This document shows positions 19,641-42,858 of a stretch of DNA of 64,000 nucleotides, piece by piece; position 1 is the stretch's first letter; each line of letters opens with the position of its first letter. This DNA comes from Chloroflexota bacterium (GTDB taxonomy: Bacteria; Chloroflexota; Dehalococcoidia; Lucifugimonadales; Australimonadaceae): the NCBI GenBank assembly GCA_009838965.1, contig VXQP01000069.1, positions 7,130-71,129 on the forward strand. The letters run 5' to 3'. The position numbers and the translations under genes were made by a program. The notes beneath the pieces were generated by a model. It saw only the letters and a program-made list of their open reading frames with translations, did no database searches and was not told the origin of the DNA.

Positions 19641-21494
19641 ATGTGCGGGATATTCGGATACACCGGCCCCCGTGAGGCATCCAGCATCCTGCTGGATGGC
19701 CTGACGCGCCTCTCCTACCGCGGCTACGACAGCGCCGGTCTTGCCGTTGCGGACGACTTCGGTCATCTCTCGATCCGGCGCGCCGCCGGCAAGCTGGACA
19801 ACCTCCGGCGGCTCGTTGAGAACGAGCCTGTCAGCGGGCGGCAGGGCATCGGCCACACGCGGTGGGCCACGCACGGCCCCGCCTCCAATGTCAATGCGCA
19901 CCCGCACACGGACGGTACCGGCGAGGTCGTCGTCGTCCACAACGGCATCGTAGAGAACTACGCCGAGCTCAAGGCGAGGCTCACTGCGAACGGCCACCGG
20001 TTCCATTCGCAGACGGATACCGAGATCATCCCCCACCTCATAGAGGAGTTGCTGGCTGCAGGCGTGCCGTTCGAGGAGGCGGTCCGCCGGGCGGCAGGAC
20101 GGCTGCGGGGGGCCCACGCGATAGCCTGCATGCACGCGCGCACACCCGAGATGCTCGTTGTCGCGCGCATCGGCAATGCGGGCGGCATCGCTGTGGGCGT
20201 GGGTGAGGGCGAAACGCTCGTTGGGAGCGACCTTCCCGCGCTGACGCCCCATGCACCGACGGCGGTCTTCCTGGAGCCGGGTGAGTCCGCCGTCGTGCAG
20301 CCGGAAGGGTTCGACCTGCGCACGCTGGACGGACGGCCGTCGACGCGCGCTTTGCACCCCGTGGGCGTAAGCGGCGGAGCCGCGGCCAAGGGCGGCTATA
20401 AGCACTTCACGCTGAAGGAGATACACGAGCAGCCGGAGTCCGCGATGAGCGCCTTGCACGGACGCATCGCATTCGCGCAGGGCGAGGCCCAACTGGAAGA
20501 GAGGCTGCTGCCGCTCACGGACGCGGAGGCCAAGGCGCTGACCCGCGTGGTCTTCCTGGGTATGGGCACGAGCGTTCACGCGGGTCTGGTGGGTGCTCGT
20601 TACGTCGAGTTGCTCGCCCGCATCCCAGCATTGGCTGAGAACGCCGCTGAGTTTCTTCACCGTGACCCGGTGCTGGACAGGCACACACTGGTCGTGGGCG
20701 TCACGCAGTCCGGCGAGACGGCGGACACGCTGCAGGCGCTCCACGAGGCCCGCGTTCGTGGCGCCCGGACCGCCGTCATCACCAACGTGCCGGAGAGTGA
20801 GGCCACGCGCGCCGCGGAACACACCCTGCTCATGCACGCGGGCCACGAGGTTGGCGTCGCCTCGACGAAGACGATGGTGAACTCGATGGTCGTGATGTAC
20901 CTCACGGCGTGCGCCCTGGGGCAGCAACGCGAGACGCTGAACGCGGAGAGCGTCGTACGCTGCGTGGACGAGATTACCCGGCTCCCCGCCCTTCTGGGCG
21001 CCGCGATCGAGATGACAGAACGCGATGCGGAGGAGATCGCGCGGCGGCATATGAACGCGCGCCGCTTCCTCTTCCTGGGCCGCGGGCTGATGGAGCCGGT
21101 CGCGCGCGAGGGCGCGTACAAGATGAAGGAGACGAGCTACATCCACGCGGAGGGCATGTCCGCTGCGGAGATAAAACACGGCCCCATCGCACTCATAGAC
21201 ACTGAGACGCCGGTCGTCGCGGTGGCGCCCCGCAACCCGCTGTACGAGAAGATGCTGATCAGCATGTCGGAAGTGCGTGCTCGCGATGGGAAGGTCATCG
21301 CCGTAGCCACGGCGGGCAGTGTCGAGATTGCGGGGTATGCGGACGACGTGCTGTGGGTGCCGGAGTGTCCGCCTCTGTTGCAGCCGATGGTCGCTGTCGC
21401 GCCGCTGCAGATGTTCGCCTACCGGACGGCGGACCTGCTGGGCAACGATGTGGACCAGCCGCGTAACCTCGCGAAGAGCGTCACCGTCGAGTAG
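19641..21494 (+). CDS. glmS: Glutamine--fructose-6-phosphate aminotransferase
   Basis: Makes glucosamine-6-phosphate, the first step towards UDP-GlcNAc. The ATG at 19641 exposes the N-terminal nucleophile as MCGIFGYTG. The glutaminase domain shows LSYRGYDSAGLAV, GHTRWATHG and VVHNGIVENY. After a linker come two SIS isomerase domains with VTQSGETADTLQAL, SVASTKTMVNSM and the C-terminal PRNLAKSVTVE. The 617 residues are the standard size. UDP-GlcNAc derived from this pathway is a plausible co-substrate for the nearby selenosugar synthase SenB, which may or may not be meaningful. Confidence 0.96.
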   Translation: MCGIFGYTGPREASSILLDGLTRLSYRGYDSAGLAVADDFGHLSIRRAAGKLDNLRRLVENEPVSGRQGIGHTRWATHGPASNVNAHPHTDGTGEVVVVHNGIVENYAELKARLTANGHRFHSQTDTEIIPHLIEELLAAGVPFEEAVRRAAGRLRGAHAIACMHARTPEMLVVARIGNAGGIAVGVGEGETLVGSDLPALTPHAPTAVFLEPGESAVVQPEGFDLRTLDGRPSTRALHPVGVSGGAAAKGGYKHFTLKEIHEQPESAMSALHGRIAFAQGEAQLEERLLPLTDAEAKALTRVVFLGMGTSVHAGLVGARYVELLARIPALAENAAEFLHRDPVLDRHTLVVGVTQSGETADTLQALHEARVRGARTAVITNVPESEATRAAEHTLLMHAGHEVGVASTKTMVNSMVVMYLTACALGQQRETLNAESVVRCVDEITRLPALLGAAIEMTERDAEEIARRHMNARRFLFLGRGLMEPVAREGAYKMKETSYIHAEGMSAAEIKHGPIALIDTETPVVAVAPRNPLYEKMLISMSEVRARDGKVIAVATAGSVEIAGYADDVLWVPECPPLLQPMVAVAPLQMFAYRTADLLGNDVDQPRNLAKSVTVE

Positions 21495-21522
21495 CGCGGG
21501 AGCCGGGCGGTACTGCGCGCGT

Positions 21523-22467
21523 ATGAAACTGGGCGTCACGTACCTCGGCAACCGGTTCGTCCGGCATTACGCGGAGCGAGACCTTCCTGAGATCGTCGAG
21601 ACCGGATGCGATTACGTCGTTCACACCTTCAGCGAGTATGACCTGGCGTTTCATTCCGGCGAGACCGGCGCACTGGTGGACGCCACTCGCCAGGCCGGGC
21701 TCGAGGCCTGGCTGGACTGCTGGGGGCTGGGCGGCCTCTTCGCGGGCGAAGCGTTCAGCGATTTCCTGCTCCAGCATCCCGAGGCGAGGCAGGTCCGTCC
21801 CGATGGCGAGCGGATCCCCGTGGCCTGCCCTAACGTGCCTGCGTTTCGTGAACTGCTCCGGACCTGGATCGAGGCGGCAGCCGGCGCAGGAGCTGACGCT
21901 GTCTTCTTCGATGACCCATTGGCCCCTGCCGAGGCGGCATGCGTTTGCCATGACTGCCGGGAAGCGCAACCCGCCTTCCTCGAAGCGCAGGATGGGCGGA
22001 CGTTTCAGCAGTGGAGTCTCGGTCGTTTGATGGAGGACGCATGCGACAGTGCCCGCCGACTCGGATTGCGCACCGCGGTCGGAGTGCTCCCGGGGTCGGG
22101 CCTCCCGGAGCAACTGGCGGCTGCCCGCGCGGCTGACGTGATTGCGGTGTCGCCCCTGTGGCGGGCGCACGGACAACCCGTCTCTCCGTACGTGTACGAC
22201 GCGTGCGCAGCGGTCGCCGCCGCCTGCCATGACTCCCGGCAGGAGCCCATGGCCTGGTTGCAGGCGTTCTCGATTCCGGCGAACCGGGAGAACGAGATTA
22301 CCCAGGCCGCGGAGGCGATGGTCGCAGCCGGGATAGCGAACGTCTCGACGTGGTGCTACCGCGCGGGCGAGCAGATGACTGCGATCCGCTCGGAGCAGCC
22401 GCAGTTGGCGTGGGAGACGGTGGTAGCGGCTTACCGCTCGCTCAAGGCGGCGTCCGCCGGCGGATGA
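21523..22467 (+). CDS. Unrecognised TIM-barrel-like protein
   Basis: A 314-residue cytosolic protein I cannot assign. It starts MKLGVTYLGNRFVRHYAERD (ATG at 21523, with the upstream frame running inside glmS). It has alternating strand/helix blocks such as DYVVHTFSEYDLAFH, ADAVFFDDPLAP and ADVIAVSPLWRAHG, reminiscent of glycoside-hydrolase-type barrels that lack a signal peptide. The CVCHDC cluster around residue 145 could bind a metal. It starts 28 bases after glmS and ends seven bases from the convergent egtD. The position next to egtD is suggestive, but no role in selenium or ergothioneine metabolism can be claimed. Confidence 0.6.
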   Translation: MKLGVTYLGNRFVRHYAERDLPEIVETGCDYVVHTFSEYDLAFHSGETGALVDATRQAGLEAWLDCWGLGGLFAGEAFSDFLLQHPEARQVRPDGERIPVACPNVPAFRELLRTWIEAAAGAGADAVFFDDPLAPAEAACVCHDCREAQPAFLEAQDGRTFQQWSLGRLMEDACDSARRLGLRTAVGVLPGSGLPEQLAAARAADVIAVSPLWRAHGQPVSPYVYDACAAVAAACHDSRQEPMAWLQAFSIPANRENEITQAAEAMVAAGIANVSTWCYRAGEQMTAIRSEQPQLAWETVVAAYRSLKAASAGG

Positions 22468-22474
22468 TGCCGGC

Positions 22475-23455
22475 TCACGGGCGGGCCACCACCAGCGAGA
22501 ACATCTCATCGGGGTCTGTGAACCAGCGGACGCTGCCGAAGCCCGCATCATTGAGTTCCGCGGCGAAGTCGTCCCTGGTGAACTTATAGGAGCTTTCTGT
22601 CCAGATCGTCTCTCCAGCACGGATGCGGACTATGTCGCCGCTCCCGGGCAGCGCGAACACTACGTCAGCCTCGGCTTCCAGATGCATCTCGATCCGCGAG
22701 TGCCCGGTGTCGAAGAGTGCGCAGTGTCTGAACAGGCTGGTGTCGATGTTGGTGTCCAGCAGGTCGTTCACCGCCTTCAGGGAGTTGAGGTTGAACAGGG
22801 CGGTTACGCCTTTGGCATCGTTGTAGGCCGCCTCGATGATGCTCGTCTCCTTAACGAGGTCCACGCCCATGAGCAGCGCGTCATCGGTCCGCGGCATCAG
22901 TCTCCGGACCTCCTTCAGGAAGCGGCTCCGCTCGTCCGGGTGGAGGTTCCCGATCGTCGAGCCCAGGAAGGCGACGAGCCGTGTCCCTTCCGGGCTGGGT
23001 ATGGCGGAGAGGTGGCGCTCGAAATCACCGACGACAGCGGCGATCTCGCCAAGGTCCGGGTACACATCGAATAACGCCTGCGCGCCTTCCCGGACCGCCG
23101 ACTCGCTGATGTCGAAGGGGATGTAGCGCTTCAGCACTCCGGCTTGCAGGGCGGGACTGAGGAGCGTTCCGCTCTTGGCGCTGTTGCCGGGGCCCAGTTC
23201 GACGATCTCGTGGGGCCAGACGTCGTGGACTATCCCGGCGCCGAAGCGTTCGAGCAACGAACGCTCGATGCGCGTGGGGTAGTACTCCTCCAGCCGCGTG
23301 ATCTCGTCGAACAGGTCGGAGCCCTCCTCGTGGTAAAGGAACTTGGGGCTCAACGTTTTCGGTTCGGAGGTCAAGCCTCGAACAATCTCCTGCACCGCAG
23401 AAAAACGCTCTTCATCCGCGGATGTGTGGACGGTGACAGTGAATAGACCGGTCAT
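22475..23455 (-). CDS. egtD: L-histidine N-alpha-methyltransferase (hercynine-forming)
   Basis: Uses three S-adenosylmethionine to trimethylate histidine to hercynine, the precursor of ergothioneine and selenoneine. The 326-residue protein shows the family N-terminus SPKFLYHEEGSDLFDEITRLEEYYPTR, the SAM site IVELGPGNSAKS, FLGSTIGNL and the substrate block FNLNSLKAVNDLLDT. The length equals mycobacterial EgtD. Its ATG overlaps the stop of the LysR gene by four bases, so regulator and enzyme are co-translated. With senC-senA-senB 4 kb away it supplies the backbone for selenoneine; no separate egtB, egtC or egtE is seen. Confidence 0.95.
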   Translation of the reverse strand: MTGLFTVTVHTSADEERFSAVQEIVRGLTSEPKTLSPKFLYHEEGSDLFDEITRLEEYYPTRIERSLLERFGAGIVHDVWPHEIVELGPGNSAKSGTLLSPALQAGVLKRYIPFDISESAVREGAQALFDVYPDLGEIAAVVGDFERHLSAIPSPEGTRLVAFLGSTIGNLHPDERSRFLKEVRRLMPRTDDALLMGVDLVKETSIIEAAYNDAKGVTALFNLNSLKAVNDLLDTNIDTSLFRHCALFDTGHSRIEMHLEAEADVVFALPGSGDIVRIRAGETIWTESSYKFTRDDFAAELNDAGFGSVRWFTDPDEMFSLVVARP

Positions 23456-24375
23456 CGGGCTCCTTCCTGTTCGATCGTTTCACGCCCCTTTGCGAGGCGG
23501 GCCAGCACCCAGTCCCCGAAGGCGTGGGCGACGGAAGAGTCGAGCTGGGGTCGCTTGACCATGTACAGGCTGCGCGTCGTGTCGAGGCCGGTCAACCGTG
23601 CGGGGTAGACCTGGTCGAACTCGTGCTCGTGCACCGCGAGCGACGATACGATGCTGAACCCGAAGCCGTTGTTGACCGCTGCCAGCGTCGCGTGGGTCGA
23701 GTTGACGACCATGACCAGCGTGTAGCCGGGCTCCTTGATCCCGGCCGAGTCCAGCGCGCGCCGGAGACCTGTCCAGGTGCCGGAGCCGGGTTCCCGTTCG
23801 ATGAACGGCAGCCCCTTCAGTTCACTCACGTCAACCGACGCTCTGCCCGCGAACGGGTGCCTTCCCGGCACTGCGAGCACCAGCTCGTCTTCCGCGACCA
23901 CCGTCCACTCCAGGGACGGATGCGCCACCCGCATCCCGGTGAACCCCAGGTCGGCGTGGCTGCCGGCGACCTGCGCGATCGCCGATGCCGAGTCGGTTAC
24001 GGCGACGTGCGGCCGCACGCGGGGGTAGATCTCGGTGAATTGAAACAGCAGGCCTGGCAGCAGGTACTCCCCCGGCGCGGTGCTCGCCGCGATCCGGAGC
24101 TCGCCCTCCACCGCCGCGTCATCGCGTGCGAGGGACTCTATGATGCGGTCGTGCGCGGCTATCGTGTCCATGGCATAGGCAAAGAGTCTGCTGCCGGCGG
24201 CGGTTGGCACCACGTGCTTTCGCTGGCGGACCAGCAAGGCTACGCCCAGCTCTGTTTCGAGCCGCTGCACGTGCCGGCTCACGCCCGGCTGGCTGGCGTG
24301 CCGTTCACGAGCTGCCACCCGGAAGCTGCCGGAGCGGCACACGGCAACGAAGCTTCTCAACGCACTCACGTCCAT
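23452..24375 (-). CDS. LysR-type regulator of the selenium/egtD locus
   Basis: A 307-residue LTTR. The N-terminal winged helix-turn-helix reads LRSFVAVCRSGSFRVAARERHASQPGVSRHVQRLETELG, and the rest is a type 2 periplasmic-binding-like effector domain (APGEYLLPGLLFQFTEIYPRV). The ATG at 24375 (MDVSALRSF) fits family N-termini better than the longer frame to 24411. TATCAT lies exactly six bases before it, suggesting a leaderless mRNA. It is divergent from the binding-protein gene of the transporter and overlaps egtD by four bases. This is the classic arrangement for a local activator; its effector may be a sulfur or selenium oxyanion or metabolite. Confidence 0.9.
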   Translation of the reverse strand: MDVSALRSFVAVCRSGSFRVAARERHASQPGVSRHVQRLETELGVALLVRQRKHVVPTAAGSRLFAYAMDTIAAHDRIIESLARDDAAVEGELRIAASTAPGEYLLPGLLFQFTEIYPRVRPHVAVTDSASAIAQVAGSHADLGFTGMRVAHPSLEWTVVAEDELVLAVPGRHPFAGRASVDVSELKGLPFIEREPGSGTWTGLRRALDSAGIKEPGYTLVMVVNSTHATLAAVNNGFGFSIVSSLAVHEHEFDQVYPARLTGLDTTRSLYMVKRPQLDSSVAHAFGDWVLARLAKGRETIEQEGAR

Positions 24376-24464
24376 CGTTCGATGATAATTTGTAATCGTC
24401 CCTGCTGTCATCTATCACGGGACGGTATCATAGGCGCATCCCACCACGAGACTGATGGAGTGTT
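24376..24464. promoter_or_regulatory. Divergent LysR / selenium-transporter promoter region
   Basis: This 89-bp region contains an AT-rich partial dyad, GATAATTTGTAATC (about 24381-24394), fitting an LTTR T-N11-A-type site, which overlaps the -10 of the LysR gene. For the transporter, TATCAT at 24426-24431 is a possible -10, and GGAG lies four bases before the ATG at 24465. The single LysR protein could control both directions. Confidence 0.5.
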
Positions 24465-25337
24465 ATGAGAAAGATCGTCATCGTAATGGCCGCTGTTCTG
24501 CTATCAGCAGGGCTGGTAGCGTGTGGAAGTGAAGACGAGCAGGAGTTGCTCATCGCCGGGATCCCGGACCAGGACGTGAGCGTGTTGGAAGAGCGCTTCA
24601 ACAACCTCGCTGAGTACCTCTCGGAGGAGACAGGGTTAAACGTGCGCTATGTGCCCCAGGCGGACTACGCCGCCGTCGTCACCTCTTTCAAGCAGGGCGA
24701 CATCCATCTCGTGTGGTACGGCGCACTCACCGGCGTGCAGGCGCGGATCGCCGTCCCCGAAGCCGACGCGATCGTGCACCGCGCGCGCGACGGCGAGTTC
24801 CATTCCGTCTTCGTCGCGGCGCCCGGCTCGGGCATCAGCAGCCTCGATGACCTGCGCGGCAAGACGGTGACGTTCGGCTCCGAAAGCTCCACCTCCGGGC
24901 ACCTGATGCCCCGCTACTACCTGAGCCAGGCGGGAGTCGACACGGAGACGGAACTCGGCGACATCAGCTTCAGCGGTTCACACGACCTCACGTGGAAGCT
25001 CGTGGAGGGCGGCTCGTTCGACGCAGGCGCGCTCAGCGAGGCCGTCTGGGAGAGACGCGTCGCGAACGGCGAGGTCGACACGTCCAAGGTCGACGTGTTC
25101 TATCGAACGCCGGCGTACGTCAACTACCACTGGGTGGCGCACCCCTCGATCGGCGACAAGTTCGGCGAGGACGCGTTAGACAACATCACCGAAGCGCTGC
25201 TCACCGTCGACGTTGACCGGGGCGGGCAGGGGAAGGAGATCGCTGAGTCCTTCAACGGCGAACGGTTCGTTCGCACGAGCAACGACAGGTACCAGGCGAT
25301 TGAGGATGCTGCGCGCGAATTCGGCATTATCGAGTAG
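24465..25337 (+). CDS. Phosphonate/selenate-type ABC transporter substrate-binding lipoprotein
   Basis: A 290-residue PhnD-superfamily binding protein. The signal peptide ends in a lipobox with Cys20 (LSAGLVAC), so it is anchored outside the membrane. It shows the family blocks YVPQADYAAVVTSFKQGDIHLVWYGALTGVQAR, then DLRGKTVTFGSESSTSGHLMPRYYL and FYRTPAYVNYHW. The LVW(Y/F)G-LTGVQAR segment is, from memory, characteristic of the subfamily annotated as putative selenate ABC transporter binding proteins, which occur beside selD. With senABC next door, a selenium oxyanion is the most likely ligand; phosphonate, phosphite or another oxyanion are alternatives. Confidence 0.85.
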   Translation: MRKIVIVMAAVLLSAGLVACGSEDEQELLIAGIPDQDVSVLEERFNNLAEYLSEETGLNVRYVPQADYAAVVTSFKQGDIHLVWYGALTGVQARIAVPEADAIVHRARDGEFHSVFVAAPGSGISSLDDLRGKTVTFGSESSTSGHLMPRYYLSQAGVDTETELGDISFSGSHDLTWKLVEGGSFDAGALSEAVWERRVANGEVDTSKVDVFYRTPAYVNYHWVAHPSIGDKFGEDALDNITEALLTVDVDRGGQGKEIAESFNGERFVRTSNDRYQAIEDAAREFGIIE

Positions 25338-26094
25338 TAATGCGCCCGCGGTGCTCCTCGACGGAGTATCGAAGCGCTACGACGAGGCAACGGTGCTCGC
25401 GCCGCTTTCTCTCGCCGTGGAACCGGGGGAGCGGGTGGCGCTCATCGGCCCCAGCGGCGCCGGCAAGACCACGCTCCTCCGGCTCATAGCCGGGGCGGTG
25501 GCCCCCTCGACCGGGTGCGTCGAGTTGCGCGGAAGGAACGTCGCGAGCCTGCGCCCCGGACGCGAGCTTGCCCGGCTCGTCGGGATGATCGCGCAGCAGT
25601 TCGACCTCGTCCCAAACCTCTCGGTGCTGCACAACGTGCTGGCGGGAAGACTCGGCGAGTGGAGTTTCGGCAGGTCGTTGCTCTCGCTGGTCTGGCCCCG
25701 TGATCAGCGTCTGGCGTTCGAAGCGCTCGAGCGGGTCGGCGTCACGCATCTCGCGCACCAGCGCGCCGCGCGCCTCTCCGGCGGTGAGCAGCAGCGCGTC
25801 GCGATAGCGCGGGTGCTCGTCCAGCGCCCCACCGTCGTCCTTGCGGACGAGCCCGTGGCCTCGCTCGACCGCGCGCGCGCCAGGGAAGTGGTGCGCCTGC
25901 TCACCGACGTGACCGAGGAGCAGGGCGAGACGCTCGTCGCCAGCATCCACTCCATCGACCTCGCGCGCGAGTTCTTCGACCGCATCGTGGGCCTGCGGAA
26001 CGGGCTCGTGCAGTTCGACGTGCCCGCGTTCAGCATCCGCGACCGCATGCTCGAGGACCTGTACGAGATCGAGGGACTGCGGAGTGAGGTCTGA
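25306..26094 (+). CDS. ABC transporter ATPase (PhnC-like) of the selenium locus
   Basis: The nucleotide-binding subunit. It has Walker A GPSGAGKTTLLRL, Q-loop MIAQQFDLVPNLSV, signature LSGGEQQRVAIAR, Walker B VVLADEPVASLD and an H-loop in ASIHSIDLA. The start is uncertain. ATG at 25306 overlaps the binding-protein gene by 32 bases; a GTG at 25351 would begin at the family N-terminus (LLDGVSKRYDE) but has no ribosome site. The stop overlaps the first permease gene by 11 bases. Confidence 0.92.
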   Translation: MLRANSALSSSNAPAVLLDGVSKRYDEATVLAPLSLAVEPGERVALIGPSGAGKTTLLRLIAGAVAPSTGCVELRGRNVASLRPGRELARLVGMIAQQFDLVPNLSVLHNVLAGRLGEWSFGRSLLSLVWPRDQRLAFEALERVGVTHLAHQRAARLSGGEQQRVAIARVLVQRPTVVLADEPVASLDRARAREVVRLLTDVTEEQGETLVASIHSIDLAREFFDRIVGLRNGLVQFDVPAFSIRDRMLEDLYEIEGLRSEV

Positions 26095-26899
26095 GTACCC
26101 CATATCTCGGGGACGCCCACGCGCGATCGAGAGCCGGCGCACCATCACGCTCATCCTCCTCGGCGCATTCGCGCTGAGCCTGCTCGGCATCGACTGGAGC
26201 GAGGGAGTCTTCAGGCCGCGCGGGGTGAGCGCGATCGGCGAAACGCTGGGCGCATTCATCCGGCCCGACCTCTCGCCCGACCTGCTCAGGACGGCCGCTG
26301 CCGCGGCATGGCAGACGGCGGTCTATGCGGTCGCGGGGCTGACGGTCGCCCTGCTCATCGGTATTCCGCTTGGCGTCGTCGCCTCCGGCACCATTGCGCG
26401 CTCGCGTCTGGGAGCCGTCACCCAGATCGGTGCCGCACGGGCCGTCCTCGCCTTCTTCCGGGCGATCCATGAACTCGTCTGGGCGCTGCTCCTCGTTGCC
26501 GCGATAGGTCTCTCGCCGATGGCGGCGGTGCTGGCCCTGGGCATTCCGTACGGGGGGATCCTGGGTCGCATCTACTCGGAGCTGCTGCAGGACGTGCCGC
26601 AGGCCCCGCTGGACGCGCTGCGACGCTCGGGAGCGTCGGAGTGGCGGGTGTTCCTGTTCGGACGGCTGCCCATGGCGCTGCCGGACATGGTCTCCTACAC
26701 GTTCTACCGGCTGGAGTGCGGCATCCGGTCGGCAGCCGTGCTTGGCTGGGTCGGGCTGGGGGGCTTGGGTTTCCAAGTGCAGATAGCGCTCGAGGACCTC
26801 GCTTACTCCCGCGTCTGGACGTTCCTCTGGGCCCTGGTGGTCATGGTCGTGCTCGTGGACCTCTGGAGCTCCCAAGTACGGCGGAGGCTTGCGCCATGA
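26084..26899 (+). CDS. ABC transporter permease 1 (PhnE-like)
   Basis: A 271-residue inner-membrane permease with about six hydrophobic helices. The conserved permease loop is GRIYSELLQDVPQAPLDALRRSGASEWRVFLFGRLPMALP, which contacts the ATPase. The GTG start overlaps the ATPase stop, and the gene ends in an ATGA overlap with permease 2. Two different PhnE-type permeases suggest a heterodimeric channel. Confidence 0.9.
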   Translation: MRSEYPISRGRPRAIESRRTITLILLGAFALSLLGIDWSEGVFRPRGVSAIGETLGAFIRPDLSPDLLRTAAAAAWQTAVYAVAGLTVALLIGIPLGVVASGTIARSRLGAVTQIGAARAVLAFFRAIHELVWALLLVAAIGLSPMAAVLALGIPYGGILGRIYSELLQDVPQAPLDALRRSGASEWRVFLFGRLPMALPDMVSYTFYRLECGIRSAAVLGWVGLGGLGFQVQIALEDLAYSRVWTFLWALVVMVVLVDLWSSQVRRRLAP

Positions 26900-27771
26900 A
26901 CCCGGCTCCAACCGCCGCGTACGTGTCAGGGAGCGGGCGTCCGAGGCTGACGTTCGTCTCGGGCTCCGTGCTGGTGATGCTCGCGCTCATGCTCACCGCG
27001 TGGACGTACATCGTTTTCGGACAGTCGTGGCCCAGCCACGGCTTCTTCTCCGGGGAGACGGCGTCGCGGGCGTGGTCGTTCCTCGGCGACCTCGCGGGCG
27101 CGGGCCGCGAAGGCACGCCTGCGTACCTGGACGGGGCAGAGTGGGCCGAGGCCGGGCGGCTCGCGCTGGTGACGTTGGCGATGAGCGTCCTCGCGGCGGG
27201 CATCGCCGCCATGGGGGCTCTGCTCACCTTCATGTTCGCGGCGCGCAACGTCATGGCGGGCGAGTTGGCCCCCTATCGGAGTCCGGTCTGGACCGCGTGG
27301 TTCGGGGTCGTCCGGCTCGGCTACGCGCTCAGCCGCTCCGTGCCGGAGCTGATATGGGCGATGCTTCTCGTCTTCATCTTCTCGCCAGGCATCCTTCCCG
27401 GGGCGTTGGCGCTCGCGATACACAACTTCGGCATCCTCGGCAAGCTCACGGCGGAAGTCGTGGAAGGCCTCGACACCCGCCCGGCCCGCGCGCTCAGGAC
27501 GTCCGGCGCGGGCTGGTTCCAGGTCATCGCCTACGCCATCCTCCCCGCCGCCCTGCCTCGCTTCATCACCTATCTCTTCTACCGTTGGGAGGTCATCATC
27601 CGGACGACCATCGTCGTCGGGCTGGTGGCGGCCGGCGGCCTCGGCATGGAGTTCCGGATCTCCCTGAGCCACTTCCACTACACCACCGTAACCCTGCTCC
27701 TCATCTGGTACCTGCTGCTGGTGTTGGGCGTCGACCTCGCATCGGCGGCGATGCGCCGACTGGCGCGCTAG
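26896..27771 (+). CDS. ABC transporter permease 2 (PhnE-like)
   Basis: A 291-residue inner-membrane permease. The coupling loop reads LGKLTAEVVEGLDTRPARALRTSGAGWFQVIAYAILPAALP, matching the PhnE family, and is flanked by hydrophobic helices. An N-terminal helix is followed by a ~60-residue external stretch before the core. The ATG at 26896 overlaps the stop of permease 1. The gene converges on senB with a four-base overlap of stop regions, so the uptake and selenoneine operons meet tail to tail. Confidence 0.9.
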   Translation: MNPAPTAAYVSGSGRPRLTFVSGSVLVMLALMLTAWTYIVFGQSWPSHGFFSGETASRAWSFLGDLAGAGREGTPAYLDGAEWAEAGRLALVTLAMSVLAAGIAAMGALLTFMFAARNVMAGELAPYRSPVWTAWFGVVRLGYALSRSVPELIWAMLLVFIFSPGILPGALALAIHNFGILGKLTAEVVEGLDTRPARALRTSGAGWFQVIAYAILPAALPRFITYLFYRWEVIIRTTIVVGLVAAGGLGMEFRISLSHFHYTTVTLLLIWYLLLVLGVDLASAAMRRLAR

Positions 27772-28727
27772 ACGCCGCCCGACACGACCTCGTCGAGCAG
27801 TGCAGCCCAGTCGGCGCACTCGCGCTGGGGGTCGAGGAGCGAGCGTAGCGGCGCCTCTGCTTCCCGAAGGCAGTCGAGGAAGGCGGGGTCGCTCTCGCAG
27901 CAGAGCAGCAGACGACGCAGTTCCGCTCTGTCGCCCACCGGGAAGTACCCCGGGTAGTCGTCGCCAAGCAGCCCCACGTTGCCCGGCATGCGCGACGCCA
28001 GTATCGGGACGCCGTCGACGGCCGCCTCCGAGACGACGTTGGCCCCGCCTTCCGAGAGCGACGAGATCACCATCACCTGCGACCGCTTGAGCAGCCGGCG
28101 GGCGCGCCACGACGGCAGCCCGCGCAGCCATGCGTACCGCGGATGACTCGAAGCGAGAGCGTTGGCCCGGCGGGTCATGGCAGAGCCCATGGAGTCCCCA
28201 AGCTGCAGCACGCGGATGCGAGACTCTCGCGGGAGGCGGCGTGTTGCGTCGGCCGTGAGGAACGGGTCCTTGACCGGCCTCAAATGCCCCACGACGCTCA
28301 CGTCGAAGTGGCGCGCGTTCGGCGACGGCCCGGACGTGGGCGTGGGCCTGGCGGACTGCACGATCGTCCGAACCTTCCCTTTGTGCTCTTCCCTGAGTTC
28401 GTCGACCGCGAGGCGCTGGAGCGTAACGAGGCGATCTGCCGCGTCGAGAACAGGGCCGCCTTCCTCGTAGAGCGGCCCGTAGACGTCCGTCCCCGCGAGG
28501 AGCACGACGACGGGGCTGTCCGGTCGGTGGGCCTTGAAGGCGGCGACGGACTCCGCGCTCCGCAGCGCGTGGATAGCGACGAGCAGGTCGAAGTCCTGGC
28601 CGCCGTATTCCTGGCTGATGCTGACCCGGTGGCCCAGGCTGCGCAGGATGCCGGCCCAGCGGTTCGCCGTGACGCGGTTGCCGTTCCGGCTGTAGGGCGG
28701 GGCGGGCGTCACGAGGCCGATGTACAC
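27768..28727 (-). CDS. senB: Selenosugar synthase SenB (glycosyltransferase, TIGR04348-type)
   Basis: In characterised sen clusters SenB couples selenophosphate to UDP-N-acetylglucosamine to give a 1-seleno sugar. This 319-residue GT-B protein matches that family. It has the N-terminus LVTPAPPYSRNGNRVTANRWAGILRSLGHRV, then DLLVAIHALRSAESV, VVVLLAGTDVYG, DVSVVGHLRPVKDP and the C-terminal donor-site block SLSEGGANVVSEAAVDGVPILASRMPGNVGLLGDDYPGYF. It lies 16 bases after senA and ends in a four-base overlap with the convergent permease gene. Alone it could be misread as a generic glycosyltransferase; the neighbours senA and senC make the assignment firm. Confidence 0.92.
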   Translation of the reverse strand: MYIGLVTPAPPYSRNGNRVTANRWAGILRSLGHRVSISQEYGGQDFDLLVAIHALRSAESVAAFKAHRPDSPVVVLLAGTDVYGPLYEEGGPVLDAADRLVTLQRLAVDELREEHKGKVRTIVQSARPTPTSGPSPNARHFDVSVVGHLRPVKDPFLTADATRRLPRESRIRVLQLGDSMGSAMTRRANALASSHPRYAWLRGLPSWRARRLLKRSQVMVISSLSEGGANVVSEAAVDGVPILASRMPGNVGLLGDDYPGYFPVGDRAELRRLLLCCESDPAFLDCLREAEAPLRSLLDPQRECADWAALLDEVVSGGV

Positions 28728-28743: not shown

Positions 28744-30054
28744 TCAGGCCGCGCAGGTGCGAAAGCCGCACATCACGTCGCGCCGGTCGGGCGTGTAGAA
28801 GTTCCGCCAGGTGTTGCGGATCAGGCGGCTGCGCGTGCTCCAGGCCCCGCCGCGAAGCACCTTGTGTCCGCTGAACGCCGGCGCGGAGTACTCCTTGTAG
28901 GGGTCGGCGACGAAGCCGGGGTACGGCCCGAACTCGGTTGCGGTCCACTCCCAGGCGTTGCCGACCATCTGCCTGCAACCCAGTGGCGTGTCCCCAGCGG
29001 GGAGAGCGCGCACGTCGACCGTGCCCTGACCTCGGAAATCAAGGTTCGCGCGCTCGGGCGACGGCGGCTCGTCGCCCCAGGGGTAGCGGCGTTTCGGCGC
29101 GCCGTCGGCGCCGCCTGCCGCCGCCAGCTCCCACTCGGGTTCCGTCGGCAATCGCCTCCCGGCCCAGGCGCAGTACGCGTTCGCCTCGTGCCAGTTCACG
29201 TGGATGATCGCAGCGTGCGGGTCGATGGGTACCCACGCGTCGTAGCGTCTGGCCAGCCATCTGCCGTCGCTCTCGCGGCGCCAGTAGACGGGGTGCTGCG
29301 CGCCGAGCGCCTGCTTCCACCACCACCCCTCGTCTGTCCAGCACGAGCGGTCACGGTAGCCGCCGGACTCGACGAAGCGCAGAAACTCTCCGTTGCTCAC
29401 CGCGGTGGCTGCTATCGCGAACGGCTCGACGCGGACCTCGTGCCCCCACTTCTCGTTGTCGAACACGAACGGCAGCTCGCCTTCGACAGCGCCCAGCGTG
29501 AACGTCCCACCGGGAATGGCGACATCGTGCGGCTCGAAGCCGGGCTGTGGCGAGGGGGTCGCCGTCGATGGAAGCGTTGGTTCGGAGAAGCCCAGCGTTT
29601 GCCGCGTGTACGTGAACGCCTCGGCGTGCATGTCGGTGTGGAGCGTGGCCAGTTGGATGAAGTACTGCTCCAGCGCATCCGGCTCGCCCTGGCCGAGACG
29701 GCCGGTCGCGTCGCGCGCAACCTTCTGCGCGAAGGCCCGTGTCTCCTCCCACGACGGGAAGCTCAGCCGCCAGCGGGTATCGTGCGCGATGGCCGCCGAG
29801 TCGTAGAGCGCGTCGGAGTGGGGCACCATGCTCTGCGCCTCGTACAGGTTGCGGAGGGTCCACTTCTCGAAGAACCACCCCACGTGCCCGACCTCCCAGA
29901 GCGCCGGGTTCACGATGGGGATCATGGGCCCCTGCTGCTGGCGGGCGTCGAAGTCGGCGGTCAAGGCGAGCACCGTCTCGACCGAGTCCAGCGCCTCCGC
30001 AACGAGGTCGTCGGTTCTGCGCGGCGGCGCGGGTGGCAGGTCGAAAGTGCTCAT
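28744..30054 (-). CDS. senA: Selenoneine synthase SenA (EgtB-like non-heme iron enzyme)
   Basis: Joins the selenosugar to hercynine with oxygen, forming the C-Se bond. The 436-residue protein has an N-terminal DinB-like domain with the presumed iron histidines His57 (EVGHVGWF), His139 and His143 (ATLHTDMHAE), followed by a C-terminal FGE-sulfatase/EgtB domain (GGTFTLGA, HVNWHEANAYCAWAGRRLPTEPEWE, VGNAWEWTATEFGPYPGF, RGGAWSTRSRLIRNTWRNFY). The segment SDALYDSAAIAHDTRW resembles SenA-type proteins more than mycobacterial EgtB. It sits between senC (18 bases) and senB (16 bases). An EgtB function making ergothioneine is the alternative, but the context favours selenium. Confidence 0.9.
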   Translation of the reverse strand: MSTFDLPPAPPRRTDDLVAEALDSVETVLALTADFDARQQQGPMIPIVNPALWEVGHVGWFFEKWTLRNLYEAQSMVPHSDALYDSAAIAHDTRWRLSFPSWEETRAFAQKVARDATGRLGQGEPDALEQYFIQLATLHTDMHAEAFTYTRQTLGFSEPTLPSTATPSPQPGFEPHDVAIPGGTFTLGAVEGELPFVFDNEKWGHEVRVEPFAIAATAVSNGEFLRFVESGGYRDRSCWTDEGWWWKQALGAQHPVYWRRESDGRWLARRYDAWVPIDPHAAIIHVNWHEANAYCAWAGRRLPTEPEWELAAAGGADGAPKRRYPWGDEPPSPERANLDFRGQGTVDVRALPAGDTPLGCRQMVGNAWEWTATEFGPYPGFVADPYKEYSAPAFSGHKVLRGGAWSTRSRLIRNTWRNFYTPDRRDVMCGFRTCAA

Positions 30055-30072: not shown

Positions 30073-31122
30073 CTACGCCGTGACTTCGAGCGTGTTGGCG
30101 GCGTCTTCCTCGGCGACCACATGTCCGATCACCGCTCCCGTAACGCCGCGCTGGGCGAGACCGTCCAGCACCGCTTGGGTCGACGCTTGCGGCACGGCGA
30201 TGAGCAGGCCGCCCGACGTCTGCGCGTCGCAGAAGATGAGCTTCTCCTCGTCGGTGATGCTGTCGCCCCACGCGATCTGTGGGTCGAATGCATCGAGGTT
30301 GTTCCGCGTTCCGCCCGGAACGACACCGCGCTCGGCCAACTCCCGCACCCCGGGCAGGAGCGGGACGTCCGGGAAGCGGACCTTCGCGGCGGTCCCGCTC
30401 GCCTTCAGCATGCCGAGCATGTGGCCCGCCAGCCCGAAGCCGGTGATGTCGGTCGCGGACTTCACCCCCGCGGCCACCATCGCCTCGCCGCCAGCGCGGT
30501 TCAACTGGCGCATCGTCGCGACGGCGCCCGCGAGAGTCGCGTCGTCGGTGACCCCTGCCTTGGCTGCGGTCGTGATGATCCCCGAGCCGAGCGGCTTCGT
30601 CAGCACGAGGTCGTCCCCGGCTGCTGCGGCGGCGTTGGTGACGATGCTGTCCGGCCGAACGATGCCGGTGACCGACAGCCCGTACTTCGGCTCGCGGTCC
30701 TTCACCGTGTGCCCGCCCGCGATGACGATGCCCGCCTCTTTCGCAACGTCCATCCCGCCGAGCAGCATGCGCCCGAGCACCTCCTTGGGCAGGTCCTCGG
30801 GGAAGCAGACGATGTTGAGTGCAAGCAGCGGCGTCCCGCCCATCGCGTAGACGTCGCTCAGCGCGTTCACCGCCGCGATGGCGCCGAAGTCGTACGGGTC
30901 GTCGACGATCGGCGGGAAGAAGTCGATCGTCTGCACGACCGCGAGGTCGTCCGTCAGGCGGTAGACGGCCGCGTCGTCGCTCGTGTCGAATCCCACGAGC
31001 AGGTCGTCGTGCTGCACGTGGGGGAGGTGGCTCAGGACCTCGCCGAGGTCCTCGGGGCTGAACTTACCGGCTCAACCCGCGCAGGTGGCCAGACTGGTGA
31101 GGCGTACTTCTTGCTGCGTCAT
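30073..31122 (-). CDS. senC: Selenophosphate synthetase SenC/SelD, selenocysteine-containing (UGA at codon 17)
   Basis: Makes selenophosphate from selenide and ATP, feeding SenB and possibly Sec-tRNA synthesis. Downstream of codon 35 the frame has GFDTSDDAAVYRL, VQTIDFFPPIVDDPYDFG, AMGGTPLLALNI, IVIAGGHTVKDREP and the C-terminal DAQTSGGLL. The true start is the ATG at 31122. Translation from there gives MTQQEVRLTSLATCAG, then an in-frame UGA (31074-31072), then AGKFSPEDLGEVLSHLP. This is the SelD N-terminus with Sec at position 17, where E. coli has Cys17, and the catalytic Lys three residues on. The product is 349 residues if UGA is read. A gene caller will wrongly start it at 31017. Confidence 0.93.
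31034..31052 (-). promoter_or_regulatory. SECIS-like hairpin downstream of the senC UGA
   Basis: In the mRNA, AGGACCUC (31052-31045) pairs perfectly with GAGGUCCU (31041-31034) around a GGC loop. The stem begins 19 bases after the UGA, and the loop starts with G. This fits the general geometry of bacterial SECIS elements that recruit SelB. Confidence 0.75.
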
Positions 31123-33752: not shown

Positions 33753-34544
33753 CTAACGCCGCCTGCGCGCGTATCCGATGCTGCTGAGGACCAGCACGAG
33801 GACGAGGAGCGGCAGGACCCATACCCACGGCGGAATACCGCCTCTTTCCTCAGGCGTTGGCACAACCGGAACCGGGGTCATCGTCGGAGAAGCCGGAGGT
33901 CTGGGCGTAGGCGTTGCGGTGGGCTCAGGCACCGGTGTTGCGGTGGGCTCAGGCACCGGTGTTGCTGTTGGCTCCTGTGTGGGAGTAACCATCGGACGTG
34001 GCGTCGCAGTCGGGGCCGGTGTGGCGGTTGGAGTAGGCGTCGGCACGGGCGTTGCGGTGGGCGTTGGTTCGGCCGTCGGTGAGGCCTGCGGATCGGGCGT
34101 GGAGACCGGCGCGAGTGATGGCCCGACCCGCAGGCTGGTGTCGCCTCCGACCTCGTGCTCGACCTTATGTTGGTCTCGCACGATGCCGGAGAAGATGAAC
34201 TCCGCCTCGACAGCAGGCGCTTGCACCGTGTAGGTGAACTGCTCCTCCCCCAACAGCGTGAACGTGGCCGCATCCAGCCTCGCGTCCACGGCGGCGTCGG
34301 GGAGGCTGGAGCCAACGAACGTGAACCCGCCCGGCAGCGTCTCCACAACCTGGGCGAACGCGCCGTAGTTCCGGGCCGCTATGGTCACCTCGATCTGGCC
34401 ACCCGGAGCAACCGAGGGGGAGGCGAATGATCGCGTGGCGCTGTGACCGGACGCCTCCGCGTCGTTCGACTGGCTGAGGACCGCCACCGCGACCACGACC
34501 ACCATGAACAGCAGCAGCAGTAACAGCGGTATGCTCCTGTTCAC
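33753..34544 (-). CDS. Secreted Thr/Pro-stalk protein with C-terminal membrane anchor
   Basis: A 263-residue surface protein. Residues 1-32 are a signal peptide or membrane helix. Residues ~40-140 form a beta-rich domain (VTIAARNYGAFAQVVETLPGGF). Residues ~145-230 are a Pro/Thr/Ala stalk with exact short tandem repeats (EPTATPVP). The end is a tail GIPPWVWVLPLLVLVLVLSSIGYARRRR, a hydrophobic helix followed by four Arg, the topology of a wall- or sortase-like C-terminal anchor without an LPXTG motif. The start overlaps the stop of the giant cadherin-repeat gene by four bases, so both are made together. It may tether or display that protein. Confidence 0.8.
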   Translation of the reverse strand: MNRSIPLLLLLLFMVVVVAVAVLSQSNDAEASGHSATRSFASPSVAPGGQIEVTIAARNYGAFAQVVETLPGGFTFVGSSLPDAAVDARLDAATFTLLGEEQFTYTVQAPAVEAEFIFSGIVRDQHKVEHEVGGDTSLRVGPSLAPVSTPDPQASPTAEPTPTATPVPTPTPTATPAPTATPRPMVTPTQEPTATPVPEPTATPVPEPTATPTPRPPASPTMTPVPVVPTPEERGGIPPWVWVLPLLVLVLVLSSIGYARRRR

Positions 34545-37500
34545 GACGCGCTCTCCCCGGCGAAGTAGATCTTGACGATCTCCGTTGCTTGCTCGCGGGT
34601 GAGCGTGCCCGCGGTGTAGTCGTTGACCGCCGCGATGGCCTCGTCGAGATCGATCACCTCGTTGCCATTGGCGTCGTAGTCGTTGGCGATGCCTGACAGG
34701 GCCACGTTGGTGATCTTGATGACCACCCGTATGCTGGCCGAGGCGCCGCTGGCGTTCTTTGCCACCACCGTGACCTGATACGTGTTCTGCTCGCCCTCGA
34801 AGTCGAAGACCGCTCCCTCGGCGATGCTGATCTGTCCGGTCTGTGCATCGATGGTGAACAGCGCGGCGTCGGCGCTCGACAGACTGTACGTCACCGCCTC
34901 GCCCTGGTTGTCTCGCGCCGATATCGGATCGCCGATGGCATCCCCGGGCTGCGCGTTCTCGGGCACGTTGCGCGAGGTCTGGAATCCCTCGCTGAACACG
35001 GGCGGAGGGATGATGCGGGTGAAGGTACCGCCTCCTCCTCCGCCGCCCCCGCCGCCGGTGGAACCGCCGGTGCCGGTGGTCGGCGGCCGCCGCACCGTGG
35101 GAGCGGCGGTCACCGTTATCGTCACGTCGATGGTGTCGTCCGGGGCAGTGGACTCGTTGTAGTTGGCGTCGAAGCCGTCGTGGACGGACACCGTTACGTC
35201 GTAGGTGTTGTCTCCGTCCGGGTCGTGCTCGATGACGTCCTTCGTCTTGATCTGGCCGGTAGCCGGATCGATGTCGAAGGTTCCGGCGTCCGAGCCGCTC
35301 AGCGCGTAGGTGAGCACGTCGCCCGGGTCGGCATCGGTAGCCCGTACCGGCGAGCCGACGTTCCGGCCCGCCGCCGGGCCCGCGGAGATGCTACGGGTGG
35401 CCGTGCGGCCCGTATCCGTGCCGTCATCGTCCTCAGTGAACTCGGGCGCGGTGTTCGTTGCGGACCTCGTAGCGCCTATGGCCGAAGCGAGCACAGCGGA
35501 AGCCGTCTTGTTGCTGCCGCGGGCGTCCTCGTAGGAGACGCTTGCCCGCAGGTACTGGTCGGCGTCGTCCGCGCCCACCGTGTAGCTGCTGGACGTTGCT
35601 CCATCGATGTCTGCCCATCCGCCTCCGCGGCTACGCGACCGCGCCCACTGCCAGGACTCGCTGCTTATGTCGCCGTCGTCGTCGGTCAGGCTGGCGCTGA
35701 ACCGCGTGTTCGCGTCCACCCAGCCTCGTGACGGGGTGATGGCGACCACGCCCTCTTCCTCAACATCTGTCACCGTGACGGTCACCGAGAGGGAACCGGA
35801 GAGACTGAGGGTTGCGTCGTCGTCCGTGGCGGTGATGACTACCGAGTAGGTCGTACGCTGCTCGTAGCTGGGCGGCGTGCGGAAGTAGAGCTGGCCCCGG
35901 TTCGAGATCCAGAAGTTGGTGGTGTCGCTGACCGACCAGGTGAGCGTGTCGCGCTCCGGGTCCGTGCCGGTGTAGGTCGCGACCGCCCGGTTGGAGTTCT
36001 CCTGGAATGACGGCGTCTCGTCGCCGGTAACGACGGGCGCTTCGTTCACATCCGTCAGCGTGATGATCATGTTCTGCCGGTCGTCGATGGCGTCCATGTC
36101 GGGGTCGCCCAGCGAGTTCGCGCCGTCGGTGACCTCCACCGTGACCCGCAGGGTGCGCCTGGTTTCGAAGTCCAGTTGCGCGCCGGTGGCAACCCGCAGT
36201 TGCCCATCGCTCGCGCCGACGGTGAAGAGCGCCGCGTCCGTCCCGCTCAACGTGTACGTCAGCGGGTCGTCGTTGAAGTCCGTGGCGACCACGGGGTCGC
36301 CAACGGCCGTGCCGCCGGTGGCGTCCTCCGGGATCTCCCGCCTGCCGTTCTCCGTCGCCGGGAACGCCGGCGCCGAGTTCACCGGCGGCGGCTGTCCCAC
36401 GCGCGGCGACACCCTGATCGCCGTCTTGCCCGAGTCTTCGCCGTCGTTGTAGCTGGCGGTCGCGCGGATGTAGCCGCCGACGTCTGTGTCCGCCGGGGTG
36501 AACGTGTCGGACGTCGCCCCCGCGATGTTGGCCCATCCCGACGTACTGCTGCGAGATCGCGCCCACTGCCAACTGACGGAGCCAATGATGCCGTCATCGT
36601 CCTCCAGCGTGGCCGTCACCGGGACCCTCGCCTGGATGGTCGCCGTCTCCGAAGAGAGCGTTACGGTCCCCGGCTCATCGAGGTTCTCCACAGTGATCGT
36701 GACGCTCTGCGTGTCGTCGATGGTGGTGGACGTGGCGCCTGAGCCGTCCCTGCCGTCGTGCACCTCCACGGTGACGCTGTAGGTGGACTTGGTCTCATAG
36801 TCCAGCGTCACGCCGGATGCGAGGCGGATCTGCCCGGTGCTCGTGATGGTGAAGGAGGCGGCGTCCGTGCCAGTCAGCGTGTACGTCAGTGCGTTTCGCT
36901 CAGGGTCGATGGCAGCGACGGGATCGCCGATGTTCGTGCCCGCCCGCGAGTTCTCCGGAACGGTGCGCTGGCCGGTCTCCGTGGCCGGGAAGAGGGGGCG
37001 CCGGTTCGTAGTGGGAACGGGGTTCGTGATCCCTTCCGCGCTCTTGCCGCCGCCCCGCCGGTCCGTGTATTCGACCCTGGCGCGCAGGTAGCGGTCGCCG
37101 TCGTCTTCGGTCGGCCTGTAGCTGCGGTTCGTCGCTCCCGATATGGGCGTCCAGCCGGTCCGCCCGTCATCCGACCAGGCCCACTGCCAGGAGGCGCCCG
37201 TGACGCCGCCATCCCCGTCAGTGAGCGTGGCCGTCAGCAACACCCCAACATCCGGTTCCTGGGCGGAGAGGGTTACTACGCCGTCTTCCTCCAGGTCTAT
37301 GACGCGCACCGATACAACGGTAGTCACGTCGATGGAGTCGTCGTTGATCACCATATCGTTGGCGTCCAGGCCCTTGCCGTCGTGCAGGGTGGCGGTGAAG
37401 AAAAGCAAGCCCTCCGATCCCGCCGTCTCGAAGTTCAACGCCCCGACGGCCGTGATCTGTCCGGAAGACGGGTCGATCTCGAAGAGAGCGGAGTCCTGCC

Positions 37501-40500
37501 CGGCCTGGATGCCGAATGTCAGGTTGTCGTTATCGCGGTCCGTGGCTGTCAAGCGTTCGGACAGGACCCTGCCGGCGGCCCCCTCGTCGATCGCCTGGCT
37601 GGTCCCCGAGCGGAACCGGGGCTTCACGTTGGGCAGGGGGTCCGCTTCCACAGGGGAGGTCTCGCCGCTGGTCAGCATCTTCCGGTTGAAGAGGTTGCGG
37701 TCCGCGTTTCGCCGGTCGAAGTAGGACACCTCGGCCCGCAGAGGCTTCCCGGCATCATCCTCGTCCACCGTGTACCTCAGCGTAGTGGAGGCGCCCCCCC
37801 CGATGGTAATGGGCTGCCACACCCCCGATTCCTGAGCCCTCAGGGTCCAGCTGATATCGACTGCATCCGTGTCGATGCCGCCGTCCGGGTCCGACAACGT
37901 GAAGGTGATCGTGTCCCCCACGACGGGGTCCAGGTTGTCCACCCTGATGACGCCCGTCTCCTCGATGTCGCGCACCGTCACGGTGACGGGCTGCGTGGCG
38001 GTGCGGCGGTTCGTCTTGCTCAGGATGTCCGTGGCGACGACGTTGAAGTTGTAGACGTTGTCCCCGCCGGAGTCCTTCGGGTCCTCGAAGCTGGGCGTCT
38101 CCTTGAAGGTGACGTTGCCGCCGCTGTCGATCTCGAAGTCAAGCGCGTCCGTGCCCGTGAGCGACCACGTGACCCCGCCCTCCTCGTCGCGCGCGGTGTA
38201 CGACGCGATGGTCGAGAAGGCGTAGGGCGGCTCCTGGAAACTCGCGTCGAGGGTAGCGTCGTGCTCGTCGAGCGCTATCGTCGTTTCGACGGTCCCTGTG
38301 AACTCCGGCTGCTCGTTGACGTCGAAGATACGGATGAAGACCTCGTGCATCGCGGTATTGGTGCCGTCGGACGCGTTCACGGTGAACACGTATCCGTTAG
38401 CTCCTACATCGGTTGAAGAACCCATCGGGTCCTCGAAGTCCGGCACGATATTCCAGCGGGCGATGGCGCTCTCGTCAGCGTCGGCCGTCATGACGAAGGT
38501 GGGGTCTTCCACGATGACGAAATCGGCCGCGTCGGGCCCGATGATGGTCCAGATGATGTCGTCCCCCTCCTCGTCCCGGGCCTCGAACCGGTACCAGTAG
38601 GCCTGGTTCGCCACCGTGGCGGGGATGGTGGAGAGATCAGACGCCGTGGTCCCGGAGTCGTACTCGATCTCGTCCGCGTGCCGACCGGTCGAGGGTGCAG
38701 TGAACCCCGGCGTCTCGTTGACGTTGGTGACCGTCACTGTCATCGGGTAGTCGCGCGTGTTCGGGCCGTCGCTGATCTTCACGATGACCTGGTACACGTT
38801 GTCATCGGCTACGTGGCTTTCGGCGGTGTTCACGCGGTCGGTCGGGTCCTCGAAGTTGGGCCGGTCCCGGAAGCTGAGCGTGCCGTGGCCGGTCGTGGAG
38901 TCCTCGGTGATCTGGAAGTCGGCGGCGTCCGTGCCGGCCAGGGACCACGACAACTCGGTAAGGGTGCTTATCTCCTCGTCCCGGGGGACGTAGGTCATCA
39001 CGTCCAGGTCCGCGGAATCGGCGTCCCACTCGATCTCCGCGAAGCTTTCGTCAGGAACGCCGAGCGGGACCTCCGGCGTCTCGTTGATGTTCGTGACGGT
39101 CACAGTGACGGGGAACGTCCCGACGCTGTTCGATTCGCCCGCTCCGTCATCGGCCCTCACGACGACCTCGTACATGTTGTCTGAGGCACCCATCATGTTC
39201 GAGTCCGCCAGGTCGGCGGGGTTCTCGAAGTCCGGCTCGATGCTGAAGGAGAGGACACCAGTGCTCCCGTTGATGCTGAAGTGGGCCGCGTCCGTGCCGG
39301 ACACGTCGAACGTGATCGTCTGGAGTCCGGCGTTGTCGGCGTTGTCGTCGTCGGTGGCGGTGTAGGTTCCGATGACGAGCTCGGAGGCCGTGGCCGTGTG
39401 GTCGAACTCGATCTCCGCGAAGCTTGGCCCGGCGTTCCCGGCGACCACCGGCGTCTCGTTGAGGTCGTTGACGGTGACCGCGACGCTCTGGGTGTGTTCC
39501 AGTCTCGGGCTCCCGTTGTCCCTCACCCGCACCGTCACGTCATAGACGTTGTCCGTGCCGGTGTCGTCCGGCCTCTCGTAGTCCGGCGGACTCTTGAACG
39601 TGAGCTCGGCCGTTCCGTTCACGGTCGACGTGATGTTGAAGTCCCCCGCATCGTTGCCCAGCAGGTCCCATGACATCGTCCCCGTCGTCGCGTCCGGGTC
39701 CGTCGCCACGTATGTCGCGACGACCCCCGTCGCGTTCTCGTCGAACGTGGCGGAACCGGGGGCGGACGTCAACGTGGGCGCTTCGTTGACGTCCGTGACG
39801 GTCACTGCGAGGGACTTGGAGATGCTGAGGTGGTTCGACGCTCCCCGGGCGCCGTCGATGCCGTTGTCCGTGACCGTGACCGTGACGTTGTAGACGTTGT
39901 CGTTGCCGGCGTCCTGCCTGTCCTCGAAGTTCGGCGCGTTCTTGAACGTGAGCACGCCGCTCGACGAGCCGATCTCGAAGAAGCCCCCGTCGTCGGCGCT
40001 CTCCACCGACCACGTCAGCGTATTGGCCGAGTCGTGGGACTCGTTGTTCTCGTTGTCCACGTCGTTTGCCATGTACGTGAGGACGGAGGTCTGGTTCTCC
40101 GCGACGGAGATCGAGGTCTGGGGGGTCGAGATCGTGGGCTGCTCGTTCACGTCCAACAGGTTGATGGTCACCGTGATGCTGTCGTCCACAGAGTTGCTGT
40201 CGTCATTTCCGGCGGCGTCCTTGCTGTCGCTCACGTTAACGGTCACGGTGTAGCTGCTCTTGGACTCGTAGTTGTAGGTCCTCGATGTGGTCTGTATCTG
40301 GCCGCTCGTCGAAACGATGGTGAACGAAGACGCGTCCGTACCGCTCAACGTGTAATGCAGCGGGTCGCTGTCGCCGCCCGTGGCGGATACCACCGAGCCG
40401 ACGTCGACGCTTCCGCCGCTGTTCTCAGCCACGCTGCGCGTTGCGGTCATGCTGCTGAATGACGGCTCGACGTTGCTGGCGCCGATCTGGCCCGTGACGG

Positions 40501-42787: not shown

Positions 42788-42858
42788 GCAGGATTCCCTT
42801 GTCGCACTTCGACATCGCTTCAGATGGGGCCGTTCCGCCCGCGATGCCATTCACGCCC

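Follow-up and report, generated by a model that had tools for sequence, protein, structure and literature searches.

A TIGR04553-family importer operon that converges on a selenoneine gene cluster in a Chloroflexota bacterium probably carries a selenium oxyanion

Within a 64,000-nucleotide stretch of contig VXQP01000069.1 (hereafter the window) from the draft genome, in 106 contigs, of a SAR202-type Chloroflexota bacterium (GCA_009838965.1), we evaluated a plus-strand operon at 24465-27771 that encodes a substrate-binding protein (SBP), an ATPase and two permeases. Read from its sequence, this operon probably encodes an ATP-binding cassette (ABC) importer whose cargo is a selenium oxyanion, with selenite (HSeO3-) the likeliest. 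The locus adds a member to a curated family, TIGR04553, whose selenium binding is putative, and the selenium cargo is well supported beyond the family name by gene context, genome co-occurrence and an adjacent regulator closest to a selenium-metabolism family. The initial annotation had likewise proposed a selenium oxyanion as cargo, and these lines of evidence uphold that part of its claim; the selenate label attached to the family is doubtful, as the pocket, read by homology, favours selenite.

Profile comparisons placed the SBP, a lipoprotein encoded at 24465-25337, in TIGR04553, the NCBIfam hypothetical equivalog for putative selenate ABC transporter substrate-binding proteins, at 310.5 bits (E=8.9e-93; cut-off 250), and left it at 141.1 bits against the PhnD equivalog TIGR03431, under the cut-off of 261.1. 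The same pattern was seen for the rest of the operon, with the PhnC-like ATPase (about 25351-26094; TIGR02315, 242.9 against a cut-off of 266.1) and the two PhnE-like permeases (26084-26899 and 26896-27771; TIGR01097, 189.1 and 172.2 against 216.7) all under their equivalog cut-offs. A frame check suggests a GTG start at about 25351 for the ATPase, whose open reading frame (ORF) is open from 25213, and the junction sequence shows the ATG of the second permease at 26896 overlapping the stop of the first. The window locus resembles the rest of TIGR04553 in score, ATPase-permease operon and selenium-gene context, and in most of the pocket positions; its permeases are two distinct proteins, which in many relatives are fused into one. 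The sequence block that had originally pointed to this subfamily is indeed present as LVWYGALTGVQAR at SBP residues 82-94, with a W.G...GVQAR core invariant in nine aligned members, and PtxB proteins show LAYFGPLSYVMAK in its place.

Selenium genes adjoin the operon. Immediately downstream, and on the minus strand, lie genes for the selenosugar synthase SenB (27768-28727; TIGR04348, 346.5 over 300), the selenoneine synthase SenA (28744-30054; NF041186, 473 over 420) and the selenophosphate synthetase SelD/SenC (30073-31122; TIGR00476, 363.3 over 125), transcribed in the order selD-senA-senB. SenA, SenB and SelD are thus adjacent and all over cut-off, as in the described senA-senB-senC cluster, and form a predicted selenoneine cluster. 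The two operons converge so closely that the tetranucleotide CTAG at 27768-27771 holds the stop codons of both senB and the second permease. Upstream, and divergent from the SBP gene, a LysR-type regulator (23452-24411, minus strand, likely start 24375) overlaps by 4 bp the gene for EgtD (22475-23455, minus strand; TIGR03438, 317.9 over 290.9), the L-histidine N-alpha-methyltransferase that supplies hercynine for SenA. Both the tail-to-tail meeting with the sen operon and the divergence from a LysR gene joined to egtD had been described in the initial annotation, and both were borne out. Three further congeneric species (loci L021-L023) keep the whole layout, which makes four species with the window, and those close relatives that have names carry the labels Dehalococcoidia and SAR202. 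The selenoneine cluster and egtD as neighbours set the window locus apart from the rest of TIGR04553, and the pairing of sen genes with this importer was seen only in the window genus; the two plasmid sen loci examined from other phyla (Methylorubrum and Hydrogenophaga) held no such importer in their retrieved flanks. A further ORF at 21367-22467, convergent with egtD, had no Pfam or NCBIfam match at E 0.001.

The regulator adds to this context. NF040786, the selenium-metabolism LysR family (LysR_Se/HrsM), is the best family for the window LysR at 246.6 bits, just below the curated cut-off of 250, and as with LysR_Se the gene stands beside selenium genes. The same family is the best match for the LysR neighbours in other Dehalococcoidia, all short of the cut-off, and the LysR beside the transporter passes it in Thalassobacillus, Alkalihalobacillus, Peribacillus and a Paenibacillaceae metagenome-assembled genome (MAG). 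Between the probable lysR start and the SBP start lie 89 bp (24376-24464), a putative divergent promoter region; a scripted search found a perfect LysR-type dyad, CGAT-N11-ATCG, at 24380-24398, and the intergenic alignment of the genus keeps CGATGATA.TT.GTAATCG and ATCACG.GACGGTATCAT as conserved blocks. Beyond the window this dyad is known only in close congeners; four other divergent LysR-SBP loci in which we sought it (L026, L027, L069 and L092) did not show it. By analogy with the HrsM/LysR_Se literature (PMC5322559), the LysR probably senses intracellular selenium status and controls the divergent promoter.

To evaluate the association with selenium beyond the genus, we surveyed 275 Dehalococcoidia genomes and 151 Bacillaceae-type genomes (the family of Bacillus relatives), which revealed SelD in all 95 carriers of an over-cut-off SBP. 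Among the Dehalococcoidia, the SBP occurred in 14/275 genomes, with SelD in 14/14 carriers against 191/275 overall (Fisher p=0.0067); among the Bacillaceae-type genomes it occurred in 81/151, with SelD in 81/81 carriers against 58/70 of the remainder (p=5.7e-5); the 12 genomes that lack SelD all lack the SBP as well, and where SBP and SelD genes shared a contig they were within 20 kb of each other in 64 of 70 cases. These p-values overstate significance because the counts ignore shared ancestry. Further carrier genomes had SelD in 48/50 cases. Gene arrangement, which sets selenium genes beside the transporter in several unrelated ways, is more telling than these counts. In Sphaerotilus the order is mnmH-ABC-permease-SBP-selD; on three Paracoccus plasmids the transporter is divergent from selB, selA and a formate dehydrogenase containing selenocysteine (Sec); in a Bacillaceae MAG selA lies 189 bp from the transporter, and selB, selD and an MnmH-like gene are no more than 4 kb off; and in Peribacillus mnmH is 0.4 kb away and the selenium LysR lies downstream of the transporter. 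Within the window genus, a relative assembled as a single contig (G001) has SelD and SelA and lacks both the transporter and senB, so these two seem to come and go together.

The oxidation state of the cargo was considered through the pocket. An AlphaFold2 (AF2) model of the window SBP (pLDDT 91), which carried out the structure prediction suggested in the initial annotation, best matched 7S6G (Z 33.7) and 5LQ5 (Z 32.9), the PhnD1 proteins of Synechococcus MITS9220 and Prochlorococcus MIT9301, with PtxB at about 28. Homology mapping predicted D35, Y68, F112, S142-T143-S144, H173 and Y221, plus N220, as pocket residues. Thirteen pocket positions defined from 5LQ5 were near-invariant across more than 100 members and 5LQ5/7S6G, giving the signature I-D-Y-T/S-F-x-S-T-S-H-N-D-Y (positions 11...206 in Prochlorococcus PhnD numbering). 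The window genus is typical at 11 of the 13, with Asp205 replaced by Asn (position 220 of the window SBP, Asp in most relatives) and Asn176, a tyrosine-cap contact, replaced by Ser. Selenite is pyramidal like phosphite and has a second pKa near 8.3, so that HSeO3- is abundant at seawater pH, and selenate is tetrahedral and fully deprotonated. In 5LQ5 the contact made by the Asp indicates that phosphite carries a single proton at pH 8, and a tyrosine cap sits against the fourth position and keeps out bulkier ligands (PMC5700983). Since such a pocket suits a mono-protonated pyramidal anion rather than a deprotonated tetrahedral one, homology with 5LQ5/7S6G makes selenite the more likely cargo of the family.

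Several observations weigh against a selenite importer at this locus. The two substitutions mean that the affinity of this SBP may deviate from the family norm, and with Asn for Asp and Ser for the cap-holding Asn the argument for selenite is weaker here than for the family and selenate becomes possible. The window LysR falls 3 bits short of its curated cut-off, the genome counts are not phylogenetically independent, and most SelD-bearing Dehalococcoidia lack this transporter. Dehalococcoidia copies outside the genus had no selenium gene within reach, and no clear selenium gene stood beside the SBP in 6 of the 10 annotated over-cut-off plasmid loci examined. We found no published value for selenium binding or uptake by any TIGR04553 member, and those whose binding has been measured take phosphite, at 0.05-4.3 uM (PMC10284923). 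The nearest outgroup, pBVIE02 (221 bits, with the same Phe90 and Asp205), adjoins a phosphite dehydrogenase.

Among the alternatives, the one that fares best is a sub-case of the selenium reading, in which the importer carries selenate, as the NCBI family name has it. Selenate is the main dissolved inorganic selenium form in oxic seawater, and the Asn at the acceptor position in the window genus would better tolerate a fully deprotonated tetrahedral anion. Weighed against this are the tyrosine cap and three-oxygen cradle, which favour pyramidal or reduced oxyanions, and the Asp acceptor of most of the family, which needs a protonated ligand where selenate is unprotonated at pH 8. The homologous PhnD1 proteins, moreover, bind tetrahedral phosphate at 7-182 uM, 6-3600 times more weakly than phosphite (PMC10284923, PMC5700983). 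We therefore regard selenate as an unlikely cargo, if one to keep in mind.

Less probable still is an importer of phosphite or phosphate, as proposed for picocyanobacterial PhnD1, with selenium genes merely nearby. In its favour, the closest structures bind both phosphorus anions (phosphite at 51 nM-4.3 uM, phosphate at 7-182 uM), their pocket is near-identical to that of the window SBP, and two relatives under the SBP cut-off, the nearest outgroup among them, adjoin a phosphite dehydrogenase. Where the initial annotation had specificity resting mainly on gene context, two members in fact have structures and several have measured dissociation constants (Kd), all for phosphorus ligands and with phosphite bound tightly; tight phosphite binding, which it had counted against selenium if joined by a lack of selenium-oxyanion binding, is thus already on record, in relatives (PhnD1). 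What makes this alternative improbable is the genomic setting. PhnJ, of the carbon-phosphorus lyase, was absent from the genome and the genus, in a search that did not extend to other phosphonate pathways; the phosphite dehydrogenase PtxD was absent from the window operon, and the PtxD-like matches in the genome lie on other contigs and are at most 36% identical, which by sequence is the level of generic 2-hydroxyacid dehydrogenases. The presence of SelD in every over-cut-off carrier of both surveyed groups and the recurrent selenium-gene and selenium-LysR neighbours argue in the same direction, as does the physiology of picocyanobacteria that have PhnD1 only: two tested Synechococcus strains did not grow on phosphite, and phnD1 was not induced by phosphorus starvation (PMC10284923).

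A small organoselenium compound or another oxyanion (methylseleninate, selenocyanate, arsenite or sulfite) is very improbable, given that no arsenic or sulfite genes were recognised in the immediate neighbourhood, that AioX/ArrX, structural relatives with arsenite and arsenate as ligands, share only about 21% identity and that PhnD1 has little or no affinity for ethyl and aminoethyl phosphonates, even though M. maripaludis uses several selenium species besides selenite (PMC11097638). Phosphonate import of the Escherichia coli PhnD type was rejected in view of the score, the pocket and the lack of PhnJ in the genome and the genus, and import of selenoneine or hercynine in view of a homologous pocket that takes only a small oxyanion.

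The preferred cargo, selenite, connects the locus to picocyanobacterial PhnD1 (PDB 7S6G, 5LQ5 and 5LQ8). These proteins are 42-44% identical to the window SBP, match its model at Z 33-34, share a near-identical pocket and themselves pass TIGR04553 (338.3 bits in Synechococcus and 301.0 in Prochlorococcus). PtxB proteins (Pseudomonas stutzeri, Prochlorococcus, Trichodesmium) share the fold, the Ser-Thr-Ser/His cradle and the capping tyrosine but are 20-27% identical and fail the cut-off, with Tyr for Phe90 and Gln for Asp/Asn205 in the P. stutzeri and Prochlorococcus proteins. A maximum-likelihood tree placed PhnD1 inside the TIGR04553 clade (100/98), sister to a Rhodobacterales branch (94/83), with the selD-operon member of Sphaerotilus and Aeromonas outside these two, so that selenium-context members stand on several sides of PhnD1. 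Unlike the window gene, phnD1 has tesA as its reported neighbour and no selenium genes described beside it, and the literature presents its product as a phosphite binder and probable phosphate transporter; our scan of a genome collection returned no cyanobacteria among its best 80 loci. PhnD1 occurs in all 97 marine picocyanobacterial genomes of Cyanorak, and its situation was termed paradoxical in 2023 (PMC10284923), after a structural paper of 2017 had asked what PhnDCE does for Prochlorococcus (PMC5700983). A SelD homologue and ybbB are present in Prochlorococcus and Synechococcus (PMC1273633). The word stem 'selen' is absent from the main text of the PhnD1 papers, with a selenium compound possible in the screening cocktail of PMC10284923 (supplementary ligand lists).

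The locus thereby ties together two questions, the cargo of the family and the role of PhnD1, through one family and nearly the same pocket. Whether TIGR04553 as a whole comprises high-affinity selenite importers, including the PhnDCE of all 97 picocyanobacteria, with phosphite affinity as a chemical accident, is to us an evenly balanced proposition. If true, phosphite would bind as the phosphorus look-alike of selenite, which would resolve the paradox of Synechococcus strains that cannot use the phosphite bound by their PhnD1, and the most abundant photosynthetic cells would possess an uptake system dedicated to selenium. PhnD1 has already been purified and crystallised, so both the cargo at this locus and the PhnD1 paradox are directly testable.

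In the selenite importer we propose, the SBP lipoprotein would capture the anion between its two lobes through Tyr68, Ser142-Thr143-Ser144, His173 and the capping Tyr221, and the two permeases and the ATPase would carry it inward. Once reduced to selenide in the cell, it would be made into selenophosphate by SelD, after which SenB and SenA, with hercynine made by EgtD, would convert part of the selenium to selenoneine and the Sec machinery would take the remainder. SelD itself is, on the reading of its gene, a Sec-containing protein: from its start at 31122, codon 17 is an in-frame TGA (31074-31072; MTQQEVRLTSLATCAG-U-AGKF), at which plain ORF calling truncates the gene. No other SelD was found in the genome (one genome match, with one TGA inside), which also has SelA and tRNA-Sec, so that a single Sec-containing SelD would supply selenoproteins as well as selenoneine. 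In this the window locus differs from the described sen cluster, as its senC is the sole, Sec-containing selD of the genome and the importer and egtD flank the cluster. One in-frame TGA is also present in most of the listed Dehalococcoidia and Bacillaceae-type SelD genes.

Other arrangements were seen in passing. Eighteen Bacillaceae-type genomes carry another PhnD-like SBP, which at about 175 bits falls short of the TIGR04553 cut-off, some 0.3 kb downstream of a SelD gene; the two such loci examined (L143, 3057-8351; L145, 3047-8385) have, in this order, a GT4 glycosyltransferase, selD, the SBP, a permease, an ATPase and a polysaccharide deacetylase. Such loci may represent a selenosugar cluster that is new to the literature and is equipped with an importer. 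In another locus (L134, 702-2349, genome G185), a SenB that passes its cut-off (330.9) overlaps with a polysaccharide-deacetylase-like gene, a glycosyltransferase-deacetylase pairing as in L143 and L145; this locus had neither an SBP match nor a SenA among its ORFs. Elsewhere in the window, a 2769-residue ORF at 34541-42850 resembles, by eye, tandem cadherin-type repeats.

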